From: Deltaproteobacteria bacterium
GTDB lineage: Bacteria; Desulfobacterota; Desulfobacteria; Desulfobacterales; Desulfobacteraceae
Assembly: GCA_027858995.1 (NCBI GenBank)
Contig: JAQIBP010000168.1
Span: 1 to 60,937, forward strand
Direction: 5' to 3'
Length of the DNA: 60,937 nt
Shown here: positions 1-7,760 of the stretch, in pieces
Numbering within the stretch: position 1 is the stretch's first letter
How the letters are laid out: each line of letters starts with the position of its first letter
Program-made: the position numbers and the translations under genes
The notes under the pieces: generated by a model
The model's input: the letters and a program-made list of their open reading frames with translations, nothing else
What the model was told of the DNA's origin: nothing
The model's database searches: none

Positions 1-65
1 AAAAACTCATTGATAACCTCACAATCTACCCTCCAAATTTTATAATAATCTGGTTTTGGGTAACA

Positions 66-140
66 TTATTCGTGAGGCAATAGAACCGCTATGGTTACAT
101 TTAACGTGAGTCAATGCGATGATTTATTAATGAGGCAATA
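66..140. repeat. imperfect 17-bp direct repeat at the 5' edge of the broken integrase
   Basis: Positions 66-82 and 124-140 match at 15 of 17 bases, with the shared core TGAGGCAATA, and are 58 bp apart. Read in frame, both copies give a similar peptide (IIREAIE and INEAIRR). This suggests a local duplication or an insertion footprint at the 5' end of the integrase. The stop TGA at 120-122 lies between the copies and closes the integrase frame upstream. Confidence 0.4.
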
Positions 141-860
141 CGCAGGGAAAAAATAATTGTCGTTGATCAGAAAGCTGAACTTAAATCAAAAATAGCTTTC
201 CTTGATACAAAAGATAGACTGTCTATTTCTGAATTTATACCTCTTTGGGTTAATAATTCAGATAGAAGGGATTTATCAGATAGGACTCTTGAAGCTGATG
301 AACTTGCTTTTAATAATCTCAAAGATGCTCTTGGAGATATTCCTTTAAAACTTGTTGATAAGAATGCAATTAGGAAATTTAAAGAGATATCAGAACTGAG
401 AGTTAAACATATTTCAATTAATACATATCTCAGACATATCAAAAGTGGTTTAAATTGGGCAAAGAGTGAAGAATATATTGATAGAGTTCCTGCTATTAAG
501 ATGTTTAAAATCCCTAAAGATATTATCAGGTATTTATCTAAAGAAGATGTTAAAATTATTTTAGCTCATACCAAAAAAACAAAACCTGAAATGTACAGGA
601 TTATAAAATTTGCTCTTTTTACAGGATGCAGAAGGGAAGAAATTATTAAGGCTAGATATGAGCATATTAAAGGTAATGAAATTAAAATATTTGGTAAGGG
701 TGGTAAACAAAGATTGATAGAATTATTACCTCAAGCCTTGGAAGAAAAACAGGACATTGGTAAAATTTTCTCTTACAAACATGTTTCCACAATATCAAAC
801 TATTTCAGAAAGCTTGCAAGAGAATGTAATATAAAAGCCAGATTTCACGATTTAAGACAT
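123..860 (+). pseudogene. tyrosine-recombinase integrase, 5' part, interrupted at its HxLRH motif
   Basis: The frame is open from 123, just after a stop at 120-122, and no ordinary start codon is visible before 501. Residues decoded from about 160 to 490 form a typical SAM-like core-binding domain (ISEFIPLWV and LRHIKSGLNWA are readable). From 501 the catalytic domain follows, with the first active-site Arg in GCRREEI and the HxLRH box FHDLRH at 843-860. The frame then runs into unrelated DNA. The missing C-terminus, containing the GH box and the catalytic Tyr, is found in the right frame at 4336-4488. The gene is therefore broken twice: the 5' end is unclear and the active-site box is split by the trio element. 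It was probably the integrase of an older integrated element near tRNA-Arg. Confidence 0.8.
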
Positions 861-882
861 TATGTAGAGTCATATATAATGG
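855..882. repeat. left outer terminal inverted repeat of RIT element
   Basis: Twenty-eight bases, beginning AGACATTATGTAGAG, are the exact reverse complement of 4283-4310. The first six bases (AGACAT) are also the Arg-His codons of the interrupted integrase, so the host target and the element end share sequence. That is expected of the crossover core of a tyrosine recombinase. Confidence 0.85.
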
Positions 883-932
883 AGAGAAAGCCTGCCATAA
901 TACTATTAATTGGGTGTAAATTCTTGAAACAC

Positions 933-950
933 TCCCCATAATAAGGCATG
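933..950. repeat. left inner inverted repeat of RIT element
   Basis: The motif TCCCCATAATAAGGCATG matches the reverse complement of 4215-4232 at 15 of 18 positions. It lies about 96 bp in from the outer end, the same distance as its partner on the right. Paired outer and inner sites at both ends suggest two recombinase-binding sites per end. Confidence 0.7.
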
Positions 951-987
951 CTCATCCTATCTTAAAACAATAAAGGATGATATTTTT

Positions 988-2222
988 ATGAATCAATTAC
1001 ATGAAATCAGAGACGCAATAAATTCCGTATTGCGCATTATGGCAGAACGTGAATACGCTGTTTCAACCATTAAGGTACATCGAGGAATTTTTAATTCCCT
1101 GATAAAGTTCATGGAGAAAAATCATTATACCAAGATGGAGGAACATGTTGGTATAGCCTACATCAAGGAAAGAACCGGTGTGACTATGGATGGATTTTGG
1201 GGGCGAGGCAATCGAAAACTTAATGCCGCTCTCAAACCGTTGCAAAACCTGTTTTATTACCTGGATAATGGGGATTTGTCTTTTTTCATGCGCTCCAAAA
1301 TCAAGCCGTTTCAATGTCCACCTGCGTTTAAGTCTGAATATCAGTTGTTTCAAAAAGAATACCGTGAACGAAATTATGCGGATGCAACCATTGTATGCAA
1401 CAACAATATTGTAAGGCGGTTGCTTGTTTTTCTACACAAAAAAAAATCAAATTTTCAGATGATATTACGGCATCCCATTTAACAAAATTTCTGGCGACAT
1501 TCGCCGAATGCCGGCCCAGATATGTTTCTACTGTTCTTTCTGTGTTGAGGAATTATTTCACATTTTTGCAAGATATGAATATCATTAAAACAAATCTTGC
1601 TACATCACTGCCGCATGTAAGAATTCTGCGCAACGCGTTTATTCCTCATGCATGGAAAACAGATGACGTAAGAAAACTACTGGCATCAATCGACCGAAAT
1701 TCTGCAAAAGGGAAGCGGGATTATGCCATTCTTCTTATGGTAGCGCATCTTGGTCTCAGAGTCAGCGATATACGCAACATGAGGTTATCAAATTTAAACT
1801 GGGACAGAAAAACAATTGCACTGAGTATTCGAAAAACAGGACAAGCACAGGAATTGCCACTTCTCGACGACATTGGCTGGGCCATTATTGATTACTTGAA
1901 AAATGGCCGGCCTCAAACCGCATGCAATAGACTTTTTGTTCGACATCGTGCGCCCTTTGATTCTTTTGGGGAAAATCAAAGTTTCTACAGTGAATTACAT
2001 CGATACATGCAAGTTGCAGGCATTACTCCACCTACTGGTGTACATTGCGGACTACATTCCTTGAGAAGCACGCTTGCCAGAAACATGTTGGAAGCCAAAA
2101 CCCCTCTTCCAGTTATTTCAGAAGTTTTAGGGCACACAAACATTAATACCACCAGCATTTATCTTAAGATTGATCTTGACGGATTGAGAAAGTGTGTCTT
2201 GGATCCTGAGGAGGTGCTTTAG
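988..2222 (+). CDS. RIT recombinase A (tyrosine recombinase), with a -1 frameshift at an A9 run
   Basis: First of three recombinases. The start at 988 follows AAAGGATGATATTTTT, with a purine-rich ribosome-binding site. The N-terminal part (988 to about 1440) has a recombinase SAM-like domain. The frame then shifts by -1 at nine consecutive A residues (1438-1446), and the continuation in the other frame runs to the TAG at 2222. The joined product is about 411 residues. The catalytic domain retains Arg in GLRVSDI, HSLR in GLHSLRST, and the GH...Y box LGHTNINTTSIYL. It ends 2 bp before the next gene, so translation is likely coupled. The A9 run could be a slippage site producing two products, a disabling mutation, or a read error. 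The sequence alone does not decide. Confidence 0.75.
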
Positions 2223-2224
2223 TT

Positions 2225-3205
2225 ATGACAGAAATTTACCAATGGCACAGTGATTTATCTGGCATGATGGCTTCCTTCCTTAATGAAAAAAGGATAACTG
2301 GTTATAAATACGGTAATCAGGAAAAATTGCTTATCCGTTTTGACAACTATTTCGACAGAAATGGATATACAGGAATACGTATAACAAAATTTATGGTGGA
2401 TGACTTCATCTATTCACCGCAGGAACAGCCTTCGACTCACTATTTGAAAGAACGCCTGTTGCGGGATTTTGCATTATTTTTGATTCGACAGGGGCACCAG
2501 GAAGTATACGTTGCAAAAATAAAATCAGCACCTGTTAAAAAATGTTCCCATATTCCTTATATTTTTATGAGAAAAGAGATGAAGCATATTTTTGCCGCCG
2601 TTGATGCCTGGGAGGATTCATTTTACACAAACAGGCACCTGATTGATCCGGTTCTTTTCCGTTTGCTTTATGCAACCGGTATGAGAGTATCGGAGGCGTT
2701 AAATATAATGGTCAAAGATTTTTGCGGAACCAATGGTGTTTTGACCGTATATCATGCCAAAAATAATAAGGATCGACTTATCCCGCTTGCGCCAAGTCTT
2801 GCCGATAGGATAGGCAAATTCATTAATATTTTTCACAAATACTCTCCAGATACAGCGTACCTGTTCCAGTCACCCAGAAAGGGTAAGATGGACAATAGTA
2901 CAGTGTACCGTCGTTTCCGCCAATACTTGCAATGTGCCAAAATTCCACATACCGATGCTGGCCCGAGAGTGCATGATTTACGCCACAACTATGCTGTCAA
3001 ATGCTTGAAAAAATGGGTACTGGCCGATGAAGAATTAACCAATCTATTACCTTATCTGGCTGCATACATGGGGCACTCTGATTTCAGAGGCACGCAGTAC
3101 TATCTCCGCCTGACTGGTGATCTGTATCCTGACATTATTAGCCGTTTAGAGGCAGGCTTCGGTTACGTCATACCGGGAGGAGGGCAAACAGATGAAGAAG
3201 AATGA
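2225..3205 (+). CDS. RIT recombinase B (tyrosine recombinase)
   Basis: 326 residues. An N-terminal core-binding region is followed by a catalytic domain. Visible active-site residues are Arg in TGMRVSEAL, the HxLRH box VHDLRHNY, and the C-terminal GH...Y box YMGHSDFRGTQYYL. The ATG lies 2 bp after the stop of recombinase A, behind GAGGTGCTTTAG. The last 14 bp overlap the start of recombinase C. In known RIT elements the three recombinases are always present in fixed order and presumably act together. Their individual roles cannot be read from sequence. Confidence 0.85.
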   Translation: MTEIYQWHSDLSGMMASFLNEKRITGYKYGNQEKLLIRFDNYFDRNGYTGIRITKFMVDDFIYSPQEQPSTHYLKERLLRDFALFLIRQGHQEVYVAKIKSAPVKKCSHIPYIFMRKEMKHIFAAVDAWEDSFYTNRHLIDPVLFRLLYATGMRVSEALNIMVKDFCGTNGVLTVYHAKNNKDRLIPLAPSLADRIGKFINIFHKYSPDTAYLFQSPRKGKMDNSTVYRRFRQYLQCAKIPHTDAGPRVHDLRHNYAVKCLKKWVLADEELTNLLPYLAAYMGHSDFRGTQYYLRLTGDLYPDIISRLEAGFGYVIPGGGQTDEEE

Positions 3206-4214
3206 TTTCCCTAAATACCTCTCTGATTTCCTGTCAAAGTATCTACCTGGGCAGAGAAACGCCAGCACGCACACAATAGCGTCTTATCGCGATGTCTTTA
3301 AGTTGCTATTGATATTCTGCGACTCAACAAAATCAATTAAACCAGAAAAAATTAAGGCGAGTGATCTGTCGAAAGAGCTCATTCTCCACTTTCTTGATTG
3401 GCTTGAAACAGAACGAAAATGTTCCATCTCAACTCGTAATCAGCGACTTGCTGTAATTCATTCATTTGTTCACTACGTACAGAAAGAATCTCCAGAAAAT
3501 CTGTTTGAATTTAAAAAAATACTTTCAATACCGAACAAGAAACACCCCCGGACGTTGGTCGCCTATCTAACTGGTCAAGAAGTGCAAATCCTTCTCTCCC
3601 AACCTGATACGTCAACGATTGAGGGATTCCGGAATGCCATACTTTTATCTGTACTCTACGATACTGGTTCCAGAGTTCAGGAATTGATAAATATTAGGAT
3701 AAAGGATGTGCGTTTATCCTCCCCAGCCGTCATAAGACTGCATGGTAAGGGTAACAAAATTCGACAAGTACCGATCATGGCCAAAACTTCGGAGATCCTC
3801 AGTTTATATCTTGAAATGAAAGAATACCATCCTGGAATTTCCAAGGGCGATAACCACCTGTTTGTAAATCAGAAGAAGAGGCAACTGTCACGATGGGGTA
3901 TCTCTTATATCTTGAATAAATATGTTGGAACTGCAAACGATGATGTTGGTTTCAATGTTGATTTCCCCGTGACACCCCATGTACTCAGACATTCTAAGGC
4001 GATGCATTTGTTTCAATCCGGTGTAAATTTGATTTACATCCGTGATTTTTTAGGCCATGTTGACTGTTCTACGACTGAAATTTATGCTAGGGCAGATAGT
4101 GAAATGAAGCGAAAAGCAATTGAGAAAGCCTATGTAAATCTGGTGCCGGAAACGGTTCCGAAGTGGGAAGAAGATGGTAATTTGATGAAATGGCTGAACT
4201 CATTGTGTAATTAG
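3192..4214 (+). CDS. RIT recombinase C (tyrosine recombinase)
   Basis: 340 residues. It has an N-terminal SAM-like domain (about 10-100) and a catalytic domain with Arg in TGSRVQELI, HVLRH in TPHVLRHSKA, and the GH...Y box FLGHVDCSTTEIYA. The C-terminus ends in a short amphipathic tail (LMKWLNSL). The same kind of tail is seen on the third recombinase of the second trio (LVDWLNSV), so it is a family trait. The start overlaps recombinase B by 14 bp and sits behind GGGAGGAGGGCAAACAG. The inner right inverted repeat starts one base after its stop codon. Confidence 0.88.
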   Translation: MKKNDFPKYLSDFLSKYLPGQRNASTHTIASYRDVFKLLLIFCDSTKSIKPEKIKASDLSKELILHFLDWLETERKCSISTRNQRLAVIHSFVHYVQKESPENLFEFKKILSIPNKKHPRTLVAYLTGQEVQILLSQPDTSTIEGFRNAILLSVLYDTGSRVQELINIRIKDVRLSSPAVIRLHGKGNKIRQVPIMAKTSEILSLYLEMKEYHPGISKGDNHLFVNQKKRQLSRWGISYILNKYVGTANDDVGFNVDFPVTPHVLRHSKAMHLFQSGVNLIYIRDFLGHVDCSTTEIYARADSEMKRKAIEKAYVNLVPETVPKWEEDGNLMKWLNSLCN

Positions 4215-4232
4215 CATGAATTATAATGGGGA
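4215..4232. repeat. right inner inverted repeat of RIT element
   Basis: Partner of 933-950 in inverted orientation (15/18 identical). It directly abuts the stop codon of recombinase C. Confidence 0.7.
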
Positions 4233-4282
4233 TTGTTTTTAGATAAATCACCCGCAACAGTTGAATTGTCAAGCCTCACTCC

Positions 4283-4310
4283 CCATTATATATGACTCTA
4301 CATAATGTCT
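4283..4310. repeat. right outer terminal inverted repeat of RIT element
   Basis: Exact reverse complement of 855-882. It is preceded by CTCACTCC, so the CCCCAT motif continues inward on this side but diverges on the left. Confidence 0.85.
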
Positions 4311-4311
4311 C

Positions 4312-4331
4312 TTATGGGGAGCTCCCCATAA
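4312..4331. repeat. perfect 20-bp palindrome at the right RIT junction
   Basis: TTATGGGGAGCTCCCCATAA is a perfect palindrome between the outer inverted repeat and the resumed integrase reading frame. Its half-site (CCCCATAA) resembles the CCCCAT motif in the inner and outer repeats. It may be a further recombinase-binding site or part of the element's right terminus. Nothing equivalent occurs at the left junction. Confidence 0.6.
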
Positions 4332-4335
4332 ACGG

Positions 4336-4488
4336 CATACAGCAGGAACTCAGATGTTAGCATCAGGAATTCATTTAGAAGTGGTACAGAAGATACTAGG
4401 GCATTCTGATATAAGAACTACACAACTTTATGCTGTTGTTTTAGGAAAAACAATATCACAACAAATGGGATGGTTAAGTTATGATTAA
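4336..4488 (+). pseudogene. integrase, 3' part (C-terminal catalytic segment)
   Basis: From the CAT at 4336 the frame decodes HTAGTQMLASGIHLEVV, then the GH...Y box ILGHSDIRTTQLYA with the catalytic Tyr, and a stop at 4486-4488. Placed after the FHDLRH at 843-860, it gives a continuous, family-typical integrase C-terminus. This is the 3' half of the gene interrupted by the RIT element. There is no start codon of its own and it is not expected to be translated. Confidence 0.85.
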
Positions 4489-4611
4489 AACTACTGCTCG
4501 CATTTTGCTCGCATTTTTGCCTTATTCTGCCGAGATTTGCCGAGATGAGACACTTTTTAAAAAAATCTTGAAAACTTGTGGAAGCTCTGATATATACTGT
4601 TCTCATGTCAC

Positions 4612-4688
4612 GCGCCCGTAGCTCAGCTGGATAGAGTATCTGACTACGAATCAGGGGGTCGCAGGTTCGAATCCTGCCGGGCGCGCCA
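4612..4688 (+). tRNA. tRNA-Arg (anticodon ACG)
   Basis: 77 nt with the 3' CCA encoded. The acceptor GCGCCCG (4612-4618) pairs with CGGGCGC (4678-4684). The anticodon loop CTACGAA gives ACG. The T-loop TTCGAAT is intact. It begins 124 bp after the 3' end of the broken integrase, which suggests that element used this region as attachment site. The spurious reverse-strand frame through this gene is the usual tRNA-Arg artefact. Confidence 0.97.
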
Positions 4689-4716
4689 CTTATAATCAAA
4701 GGTTTTCAGCTTTTGC

Positions 4717-5055
4717 TTGAAAACTTTTTTTTGCCTGTGTGAGAATCTGTGTGAGAAAACTCATCAAAATTCTGATCAAGACCCAATAGTCTTTGGTGTT
4801 ATGGGAAGTGCCTGGCTTGGCTTTGGAGTTGTCTCTCTTTTTGGATTAAGGCCCCCGCTTAAATTTTCACCAATTTTATTGCTGCAATTAGTTTATAAAT
4901 TGATATGGCTCTTTGGTGTTATTCTTCCTCTGATTTTATCAGGGAATTTTCCATTGTACGCGATATTGTATTTAGTAATTTTTATAACTTATATTGTTGG
5001 AGATTTGATTTCTATTCCATTTTCATATATTTTTAAAAAAGGAGAAGAAGCATAG
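4717..5055 (+). CDS. small membrane protein, probably N-terminally truncated
   Basis: 112 residues with about three hydrophobic segments after residue 25 (FGVVSLFGL, LLQLVYKLIWLFGVILP, YAILYLVIFITYIVG). The hydrophobic part resembles a small family of conserved hypothetical membrane proteins. The first 22 residues (MKTFFCLCENLCEK...) overlap short CTGTGTGAGAA repeats just after tRNA-Arg and do not look native. The true gene may have lost its 5' end to the integration event. No specific function can be assigned. Confidence 0.5.
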   Translation: MKTFFCLCENLCEKTHQNSDQDPIVFGVMGSAWLGFGVVSLFGLRPPLKFSPILLLQLVYKLIWLFGVILPLILSGNFPLYAILYLVIFITYIVGDLISIPFSYIFKKGEEA

Positions 5056-7557: not shown

Positions 7558-7760
7558 ATGTAATACTCCTGTTTTTGAAAAATTTACAATGTTTATAATA
7601 ACAATAAGTTGCGCATTCATTTTGTAAAGGATAAATACCAAAATTGAAATCATAAACCATGCCGGAAAATAAAATTTCAAATTTTCAATTTTGACAGTAA
7701 AAAATGTGTTAAGATAGCACGGTGTCAATAAAATGATTTCTGATAAATAGGATTGAATCC

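Follow-up and report, generated by a model that had tools for sequence, protein, structure and literature searches.

Recombinase-in-trio (RIT) elements have been in print since 2009. In the accessible parts of PMC3414803, RITs are described as having a 28-29 bp repeat with a palindrome, variable ends and a few insertion genes, with features unlike those of usual recombinase sites, while the accessible parts of PMC2864759 place them in radC in two species and, in one case, in IS66 tnpA. Known single insertions of Cupriavidus and other RITs lie in IS66 tnpA, radC and a Tn6049-like transposase gene (PMC3414803, PMC2864759). The literature covered, as far as it was accessible, gives RITs no clear target and finds their three recombinases hard to explain. 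We found no target rule stated in it (PMC3414803, PMC2864759, PMC8138268 and PMC10214605 included), a coverage that is partial and leaves priority uncertain.

Here, we describe a 60,937-nt stretch of DNA (positions 1 to 60,937 of contig JAQIBP010000168.1, assembly GCA_027858995.1, from a Desulfobacteraceae bacterium; hereafter the window), in which a tyrosine integrase is split into two halves, at the Arg-His codons of its HxLRH motif, by a 3.5-kb RIT element. Our reading, to which we give a probability of roughly 0.87, is that the RIT lineage to which this element belongs homes into tyrosine recombinase genes at the catalytic Arg-His codons of HxLRH, moving as a circle that would swap a short overlap with its target. 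What the sequences themselves establish is that related copies interrupt many different recombinase genes at this codon pair. The two parts of the integrase are the following.

123..860, + strand: 5' part of the interrupted tyrosine integrase, one open frame that ends FHDLRH, no usual start codon found, PF00589 match to position 134
4333..4488, + strand: 3' part of the interrupted integrase, RHTAGTQ..LGHSDIRTTQLY.., PF00589 match from position 133, stop codon at 4486-4488

The left half ends with AGA CAT (855-860), the right half starts with CGG CAT (4333-4338), and the frame is kept across the element, with 738 nt on the left and 150 nt on the right (4339-4488). Since the left piece (156-860) matches the 172-position Pfam model PF00589 up to 134 and the right piece matches it from 133, the two are complementary halves that meet at Arg-His. 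The original prediction of two in-frame halves of one integrase, broken on these codons with AGA CAT on one side and CGG CAT on the other, is therefore borne out. Intact homologues, the closest of which (L008; loci are numbered with L and genomes with G) shows 61% amino acid identity, read FHDLRHTAGT or similar without a break. The C-terminal catalytic residues of tyrosine recombinases are His/Trp and the Tyr nucleophile, and because the insertion parts these from the rest of the protein, the integrase should be unable to work while the element is in place. The integrase frame has no ATG, GTG or TTG before codon 127, and approximately the first 25-30 residues present in L050 are missing from it (window 1-200 region), so the broken gene may have decayed for another reason too, independently of the insertion.

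The element is organized as follows, N-end and C-end designating the ends joined to the 5' and 3' gene halves, respectively, and ORF an open reading frame.

860..4331, + strand: RIT element as delimited by our model, from arm TTATG through the palindrome
854..859, + strand: 6-nt overlap (coupling) at the N-end, AAGACA, i.e., the Arg codon plus CA of His, with edges as suggested by empty sites and His wobble bases
855..882, + strand: 28-bp left terminal inverted repeat, matching 4283-4310 exactly in inverted form
930..957, + strand: subterminal repeat, similar (inverted) to 4208-4235
988..1482, + strand: ritA, first frame, ORF
1395..2222, + strand: ritA, second frame, catalytic domain HSLRS..LGH..Y, frame change near an A9 run
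2225..3205, + strand: ritB, ORF
3192..4214, + strand: ritC, ORF
4283..4310, - strand: right terminal inverted repeat, whose outermost bases are the inner coupling (AGA-CAT on the - strand)
4312..4331, no strand: 20-bp palindrome TTATGGGGAGCTCCCCATAA, read as two recombinase arms back to back
4332..4337, + strand: 6-nt overlap at the C-end, ACGGCA (N-Arg-CA)

This is a RIT by gene order, with three consecutive tyrosine recombinase genes A-B-C on the same strand (B and C overlap by 14 nt, A and B are 2 nt apart), by its length of ~3.5 kb with a 28-29-bp inverted repeat and palindrome, as described in the accessible parts of PMC3414803, and by homology, with RitB sharing 36.5% identity over 95% with one recombinase from a three-recombinase array of the Cupriavidus plasmid pHG1, which is named there as RIT-rich. 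The palindrome to the right of the second repeat (4312-4331) is also present at the ends of related elements, and the outer 101 nt of the two element ends are 75% alike. Besides ritA, ritB, ritC and small overlapping or antisense ORFs, the element holds no ORF of at least 60 aa. It is present as a single copy, with no further one found in the 3.98-Mb, 172-contig assembly of the window's own genome. The two ritA frames overlap at 1395-1482 around the A9 run, and this frame break is common to a 90%-identical copy (L037) and absent from another (L038); it is possibly a slippage signal or a shared old mutation.

Related elements were collected by a profile scan of genome contigs with a RitB alignment, which gave 80 loci, the best 80 of 135 confirmed. 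A RitB bit score of at least 218 against that of the window retained 37 rows, which correspond to 33 nonredundant loci, window included, after duplicates (L036, L054, L055 and L076) were dropped; L051, L052 and L134-L136 repeat viral contigs. Alignment of the inverted repeats located the element ends, which were then read from their junctions, in part manually; those of L037, L038, L056 and L062 were hand-read after the repeat search had overshot or undershot. An end could be read in 30 of the 33 loci (all except L064, L067 and L074), and 27 of these 30 break a tyrosine recombinase gene at the Arg-His codons (26/29 without the window). At the level of individual ends, 45 of 66 lie at Arg-His (including the right end of L061, counted despite a lost palindrome), 7 lie elsewhere, and 14 are unreadable (contig end, lost end or nested), which amounts to 45/52 readable ends. 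The interrupting copies span Bacillota, Actinomycetota and Thermodesulfobacteriota and sit in many different recombinase genes. The proposal that the trio recognizes a site conserved in recombinase genes is thus strongly supported by this survey, in a form wider than was originally stated.

The junction fixes the frame of the flanking gene, and 34 of the 45 peptides read in this frame match a recombinase hidden Markov model (HMM) at E<0.01, with the boundary at model position 257/258 in 33 of the 34; the match of the left end of L088 ends at 240. The two other frames gave no match, and neither did any of 140 control peptides, which were taken from the ends of nonmember loci with L063, L064, L065, L067, L074 and L087 left out. 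Part of the training set of this HMM came from the window's element and from homologues of the integrase that it interrupts, so Pfam served as the independent control. Pfam places breaks at PF00589 132-135 for the window (N and C), L035 (both ends), L038 (right), L058, L059, L060, L066, L068 (both ends), L072, L075 and L081, and is weak or incomplete for L083 left (no match, then 0.018), L040 right (0.017), L056 left (0.024) and L088 left (match stops at 121).

Two copies are ~90% identical to the window's element, L037 (G056, same family) and L038 (G011, same genus), and each of their four ends opens with R-H from the 3' half of a recombinase gene, namely RHTAATHLNKV.. at either end of L037 and RHSLASALLEDN.. 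and RHSFATHLLEDG.. in L038. The copies on viral contigs (L035 and L036) interrupt ritC-like genes at their LRH box. Among loci under the score threshold, which were not counted, the right ends of L091 and L098 lie at LRH, and L087 has one end at MHDNRH and the other off Arg-His. The ritB gene of L040 is itself interrupted by 3.3 kb of other DNA (1750-5020), not at Arg-His.

The ends of these elements share an attachment architecture, in which inverted arms of the CTCCCCATAA / TTATGGGGAG type surround an overlap of ~6 nt, N-Arg-CA. At N-ends, ..HxLR-CA of the gene runs into TTATG (ATATG in L035), so that the 5' gene half joins one arm directly. C-ends consist, inward from the gene, of an overlap, a CTCCCCATAA-type arm, its inverted partner (the two together being the palindrome), a second overlap, and then TTATG with the inverted repeat, a layout that is lost at the right end of L061. 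Arm variants keep the symmetry (CTCTACATAAT, CTCCCCATTT and, mostly in actinobacterial loci, TTCCACATAA), and a lineage that targets reverse transcriptase (RT) genes has the same layout, CTTTGCATAA-N6-TTATGCAAAG. Of 21 C-ends with an inner overlap, 19 have an Arg codon there (p 5e-18 vs. 6/64); the 22nd C-end, L061, has no inner overlap. As outer and inner codons are identical in only 6/21 C-ends, the inner overlap is not a fixed sequence of the element, and its Arg codons fit past recombinase targets. The wobble base of the His codon is T in 22/23 N-ends but T in 15 and C in 7 of the 22 C-ends, and this variation at C-ends against a near-constant T at N-ends sets one edge of the overlap. The repeat had originally been described as beginning with AGACAT. 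The exact 28-bp repeat stands, while AGACAT (855-860) is better taken as the overlap followed by the first base of the arm, with CGGCAT as the other overlap copy; its presence in the repeat is no longer puzzling if the element brought along Arg-His bases, which would suit a gene that hosted it before.

Uninterrupted copies of the target are available for three insertions. In G011, the genome of L038, the gene on the left flank is ritA of another RIT, which is intact on another contig, with identity at 108/108 nt starting at CAT; CTTCGCCATAGCC at the empty site contrasts with AAGAGACATAGCC at the junction, and the target's own TCGCCAT is found at the inner coupling of the same end. For L062, the same genome contains a 99% identical intact copy, which reads CACTTAGACATGCCTTTGCC; both junctions continue the same gene from AGACAT or AGGCAT, and the inner couplings are AGG and AGA. 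The empty sites of these two copies, with 99-100% identical flanks, join exactly at the Arg-His codons, as the original prediction would have it. Both conditions named at the outset as able to refute the proposal, empty sites joining elsewhere and other copies lacking a preference for recombinase genes, therefore turned out in its favor. In the RT lineage, G063 has two uninterrupted RT genes in which the 674 nt before the site are identical to the interrupted gene, the empty site CCCCAGGGAGGTCCGC contrasting with ends CCCCAGGGTAGT-TTATG and CATAA-GGAGGTCCGC; one of these two empty copies carries a stop in the motif. Two insertions with identical RitC in this genome (L046 and L047) each break a separate group II intron RT gene, both times at the codons for PQGG. 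All three empty-site cases fit a swap of approximately six bases.

We infer from these junctions a mechanism in which RitA, RitB and RitC would cut the element out in circular form, with two core sites at the circle joint (arm-o1-arm and arm-o2-arm), each core site being two inverted arms around an overlap. One core site would recombine with a target gene that has a weak arm match, by swapping the ~6-nt overlap (N-Arg-CA), for which a full match would be unnecessary. One junction would then keep the Arg codon of the target, and the other would show the codon brought from the previous host gene. Excision would restore an intact recombinase gene because either overlap copy usually still encodes Arg-His. 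The circle, the enzymology and the role of each Rit protein are proposed on the same footing.

The elements with rearranged ends bear on this model. Among the 18 elements with both ends at Arg-His, 12 have one N-end and one C-end, 3 are C..C and 3 are N..N, layouts that possibly come from misassembly or inversion; a two-site joint would also permit inversions. The six C..C and N..N elements are L037, L038, L060, L062, L069 and L075. In the strain genome of Clostridium sp. DSM 17811 (L108, 8980-9030), a bare palindrome fuses an integrase C-half to a RitB C-half head to head, a product that the two-site model can form. By its arms (AAATCCAAACGTTTGGATTT type), L108 groups with a second lineage (L074 and L126), with ends also at the Arg-His position, by junction only. 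On two Rhodococcus plasmids (L158 and L159), a RIT sits in an RT gene in opposite orientations, as would be expected if both core sites of the circle joint are usable.

More distant RITs have other targets. A target was recognized in 17 of the 42 more distant loci whose ends were read, the remaining 25 having ends at contig edges, not found, or in unrecognized genes. The recognized targets are listed below.

Group II intron RT (PQGG): L042, L043, L046, L047, L096
istB Walker A, in IS21-type elements: L044, L053, L092 (L095 and L097 add two istB cases outside the 42)
istB Walker B: L045
C5 DNA methyltransferase, catalytic PCQ codons: L123, L128, L133
DDE transposase, first Asp: L112, L119
DDE transposase, another motif: L041, by eye
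ParA (DADAQ): L124
SpoVG: L122, break beyond the best domain match and so not counted as lying in a catalytic motif

The two Rhodococcus plasmids, which are complete, add two RT cases. Pfam supports 12 of the 17 targets, and the model edges complement each other wherever it was applied to both sides (RVT_1 N up to 123 and C from 122; IstB N up to 104 and C from 104-105; PF00145 N up to 72 and C from 73). L107 has only a sub-threshold match to Laminin_G_3, a nonmobile domain. The RIT of pHG1 (L155, 6500-6650 and 3000-3110) apparently interrupts an annotated integrase close to its catalytic Tyr (STTERY), a Tyr-box reading made by annotation and eye, as Pfam gave no match for the N piece of that integrase. 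In a RitC tree (IQ-TREE), relied on for target clustering only, the 9 target types need 9 changes, compared with a mean of 17.6 after shuffling (0/200 shuffles as low). The whole RIT superfamily might consist of motif homers with one attachment architecture (inverted TTATG-type arms, ~6-nt overlap), in which the overlap of each lineage is tuned to codons of a catalytic or nucleotide-binding motif in a gene family carried by mobile elements, and the trapped inner overlap records past hosts. The example motifs would be recombinase Arg-His, RT PQGG, IstB Walker A or B, DDE first Asp, PCQ, ParA DADAQ and, weakly, the pHG1 Tyr box. We regard this extension as evenly poised, because a target was recognized in only 17/42 distant loci.

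Several observations weigh against homing at Arg-His codons by overlap swap. Eleven of the 45 Arg-His ends are assigned by motif and junction layout, without an HMM match below 0.01, and 7 of the 52 readable ends, judged by eye (L065 also by Pfam), are off Arg-His (L063 both, L065 both, L071 left, L073 left and L077 right). The ends are partly nonindependent, L068 and L069 carrying nearly the same element, and 6 of the 18 elements with two Arg-His ends carry two 5' or two 3' halves, 5 of the 6 being labeled metagenome-assembled genomes (MAGs). Two inner couplings do not encode Arg (L058 AAA and L081 GGG), and the second overlap edge comes from one case in the recombinase lineage (L038 left) and the RT case. 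A search of the window's own genome and 193 relative genomes turned up neither a close intact copy nor a close empty site for the interrupted integrase (best 61% amino acid identity). The circle and the movement are deduced indirectly from sequence (copies in different genes, overlap swap). Finally, the recombinase group has only moderate support on the RitC tree (SH-aLRT 82), a RitB+RitC tree (FastTree) splits it in two, and istB-targeting rows are hardly clustered (3 changes; 31/500 shuffles as low). Of the elements with ends off Arg-His, L065 (ends at 7590 and 11100) belongs to the recombinase-targeting lineage but interrupts a DUF932 gene; the sequence there, CGCCAA/CGCCAT, resembles the usual site, and the insertion is read as an off-target one.

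Among the alternatives, the one that survives best accepts that the DNA site is recognized and holds that the driver is a conserved, ever-present and safe codon run, as tRNA genes are for phages, with no gain from disabling the recombinase. We lean slightly toward this view of the driver, for distant lineages use other highly conserved codons (RT PQGG, the istB P-loop, C5 methyltransferase PCQ and DDE transposase), and the overlap mostly still encodes Arg-His, so that excision can be clean. The recognized targets, however, seem to be mostly mobile-element genes rather than housekeeping genes, which a pure landing pad would not require. It is unlikely, in our estimation, that the element is instead a weapon that profits from disabling competing integrases, RIT elements included. 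Inactivation of competitors was one purpose originally suggested for the trio, the other being that it might spread on their backs. Broken genes do lie in other three-recombinase arrays (L035, L037, L066, L068, L081 and L082), the left end of L038 breaks ritA of another RIT, and the window's target is an island-type integrase. A purely anti-recombinase purpose nevertheless becomes less likely as a general RIT rule because several distant lineages, whose ends are laid out alike, interrupt conserved genes that encode no recombinase, including those for C5 methyltransferase and ParA. A coincidence, in which RITs gather in integrase-rich genomic islands and the break in the window fell on Arg-His by chance, is highly improbable even though ~68% of 19 chromosomal RITs with known context are on predicted islands according to the accessible parts of PMC3414803, since island bias cannot put 45/52 readable ends on one codon pair of many different recombinase genes, nor yield Arg at the inner coupling in 19/21. 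We dismiss just as readily an assembly artifact, in which the junctions would be chimeras of the element's own recombinase genes with others, for although many loci are MAG contigs and the C..C and N..N layouts are in MAGs in 5/6 cases, the same junctions are found in named strains (Anaerovirgula multivorans L058, Desulfosporosinus L066, Muricomes intestini DSM 29489 L070 and Arthrobacter sp. H35-D1 L081), RT-lineage junctions are found in the complete plasmid records L158 and L159, and the flanking half in the window resembles island-type integrases (61% to L008), not its own Rit genes.

One further feature lies next to the broken integrase.

4612..4688, + strand: tRNA-Arg(acg), possibly the attachment gene of the host island

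Homing at Arg-His codons would have consequences beyond this locus. A codon-level target rule, together with empty sites and a readable overlap, makes RIT chemistry directly testable. It suggests DNA-level homing into active-site codons without introns or inteins, and it suggests that mobile elements prey on one another's genes for recombinase, transposase and reverse transcriptase. With an arm layout that is kept while the target differs between lineages, the RIT family could show how tyrosine recombinases change specificity.

Inteins and homing introns, which insert in active-site codons, follow the same target logic, that of the most conserved codons; unlike them, the RIT breaks its gene without splicing. 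A mechanistic parallel is Tn916, whose 6-nt overlap differs between junctions and carries bases from the previous site. The window's element similarly has different 6-nt couplings at its two ends (AAGACA vs. ACGGCA), as do other copies for which empty sites are available, and AGACAT and CGGCAT would thus be exchanged copies of the overlap. Tn916, however, prefers AT-rich DNA without regard to one gene family and, as in other Tn916-like elements, uses a single Tn916-type Int with Xis, whereas here the overlap is the Arg-His codon pair and there are three Rit recombinases. The element of the window would therefore, by analogy, work like Tn916 without being a member of the Tn916-like elements. 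The Tn554 family, which inserts in radC, also combines several recombinases with one gene as its site, but where it has a single gene, the window's lineage targets a motif common to a whole superfamily of mobile genes. The Tn554 recombinases are named in the accessible parts of PMC8138268. GInt and SE elements (PMC5385486, PMC10214605) similarly encode several tyrosine recombinases or related proteins per element, and differ in having four conserved genes plus cargo and, in the parts of these descriptions that are accessible, no tie that we could find to recombinase active-site codons. Compared with the RITs of PMC3414803, for which the accessible parts give no target rule, the elements described here provide a codon-level rule and an overlap of ~6 nt and point to a two-site circle joint, read or deduced from many copies.

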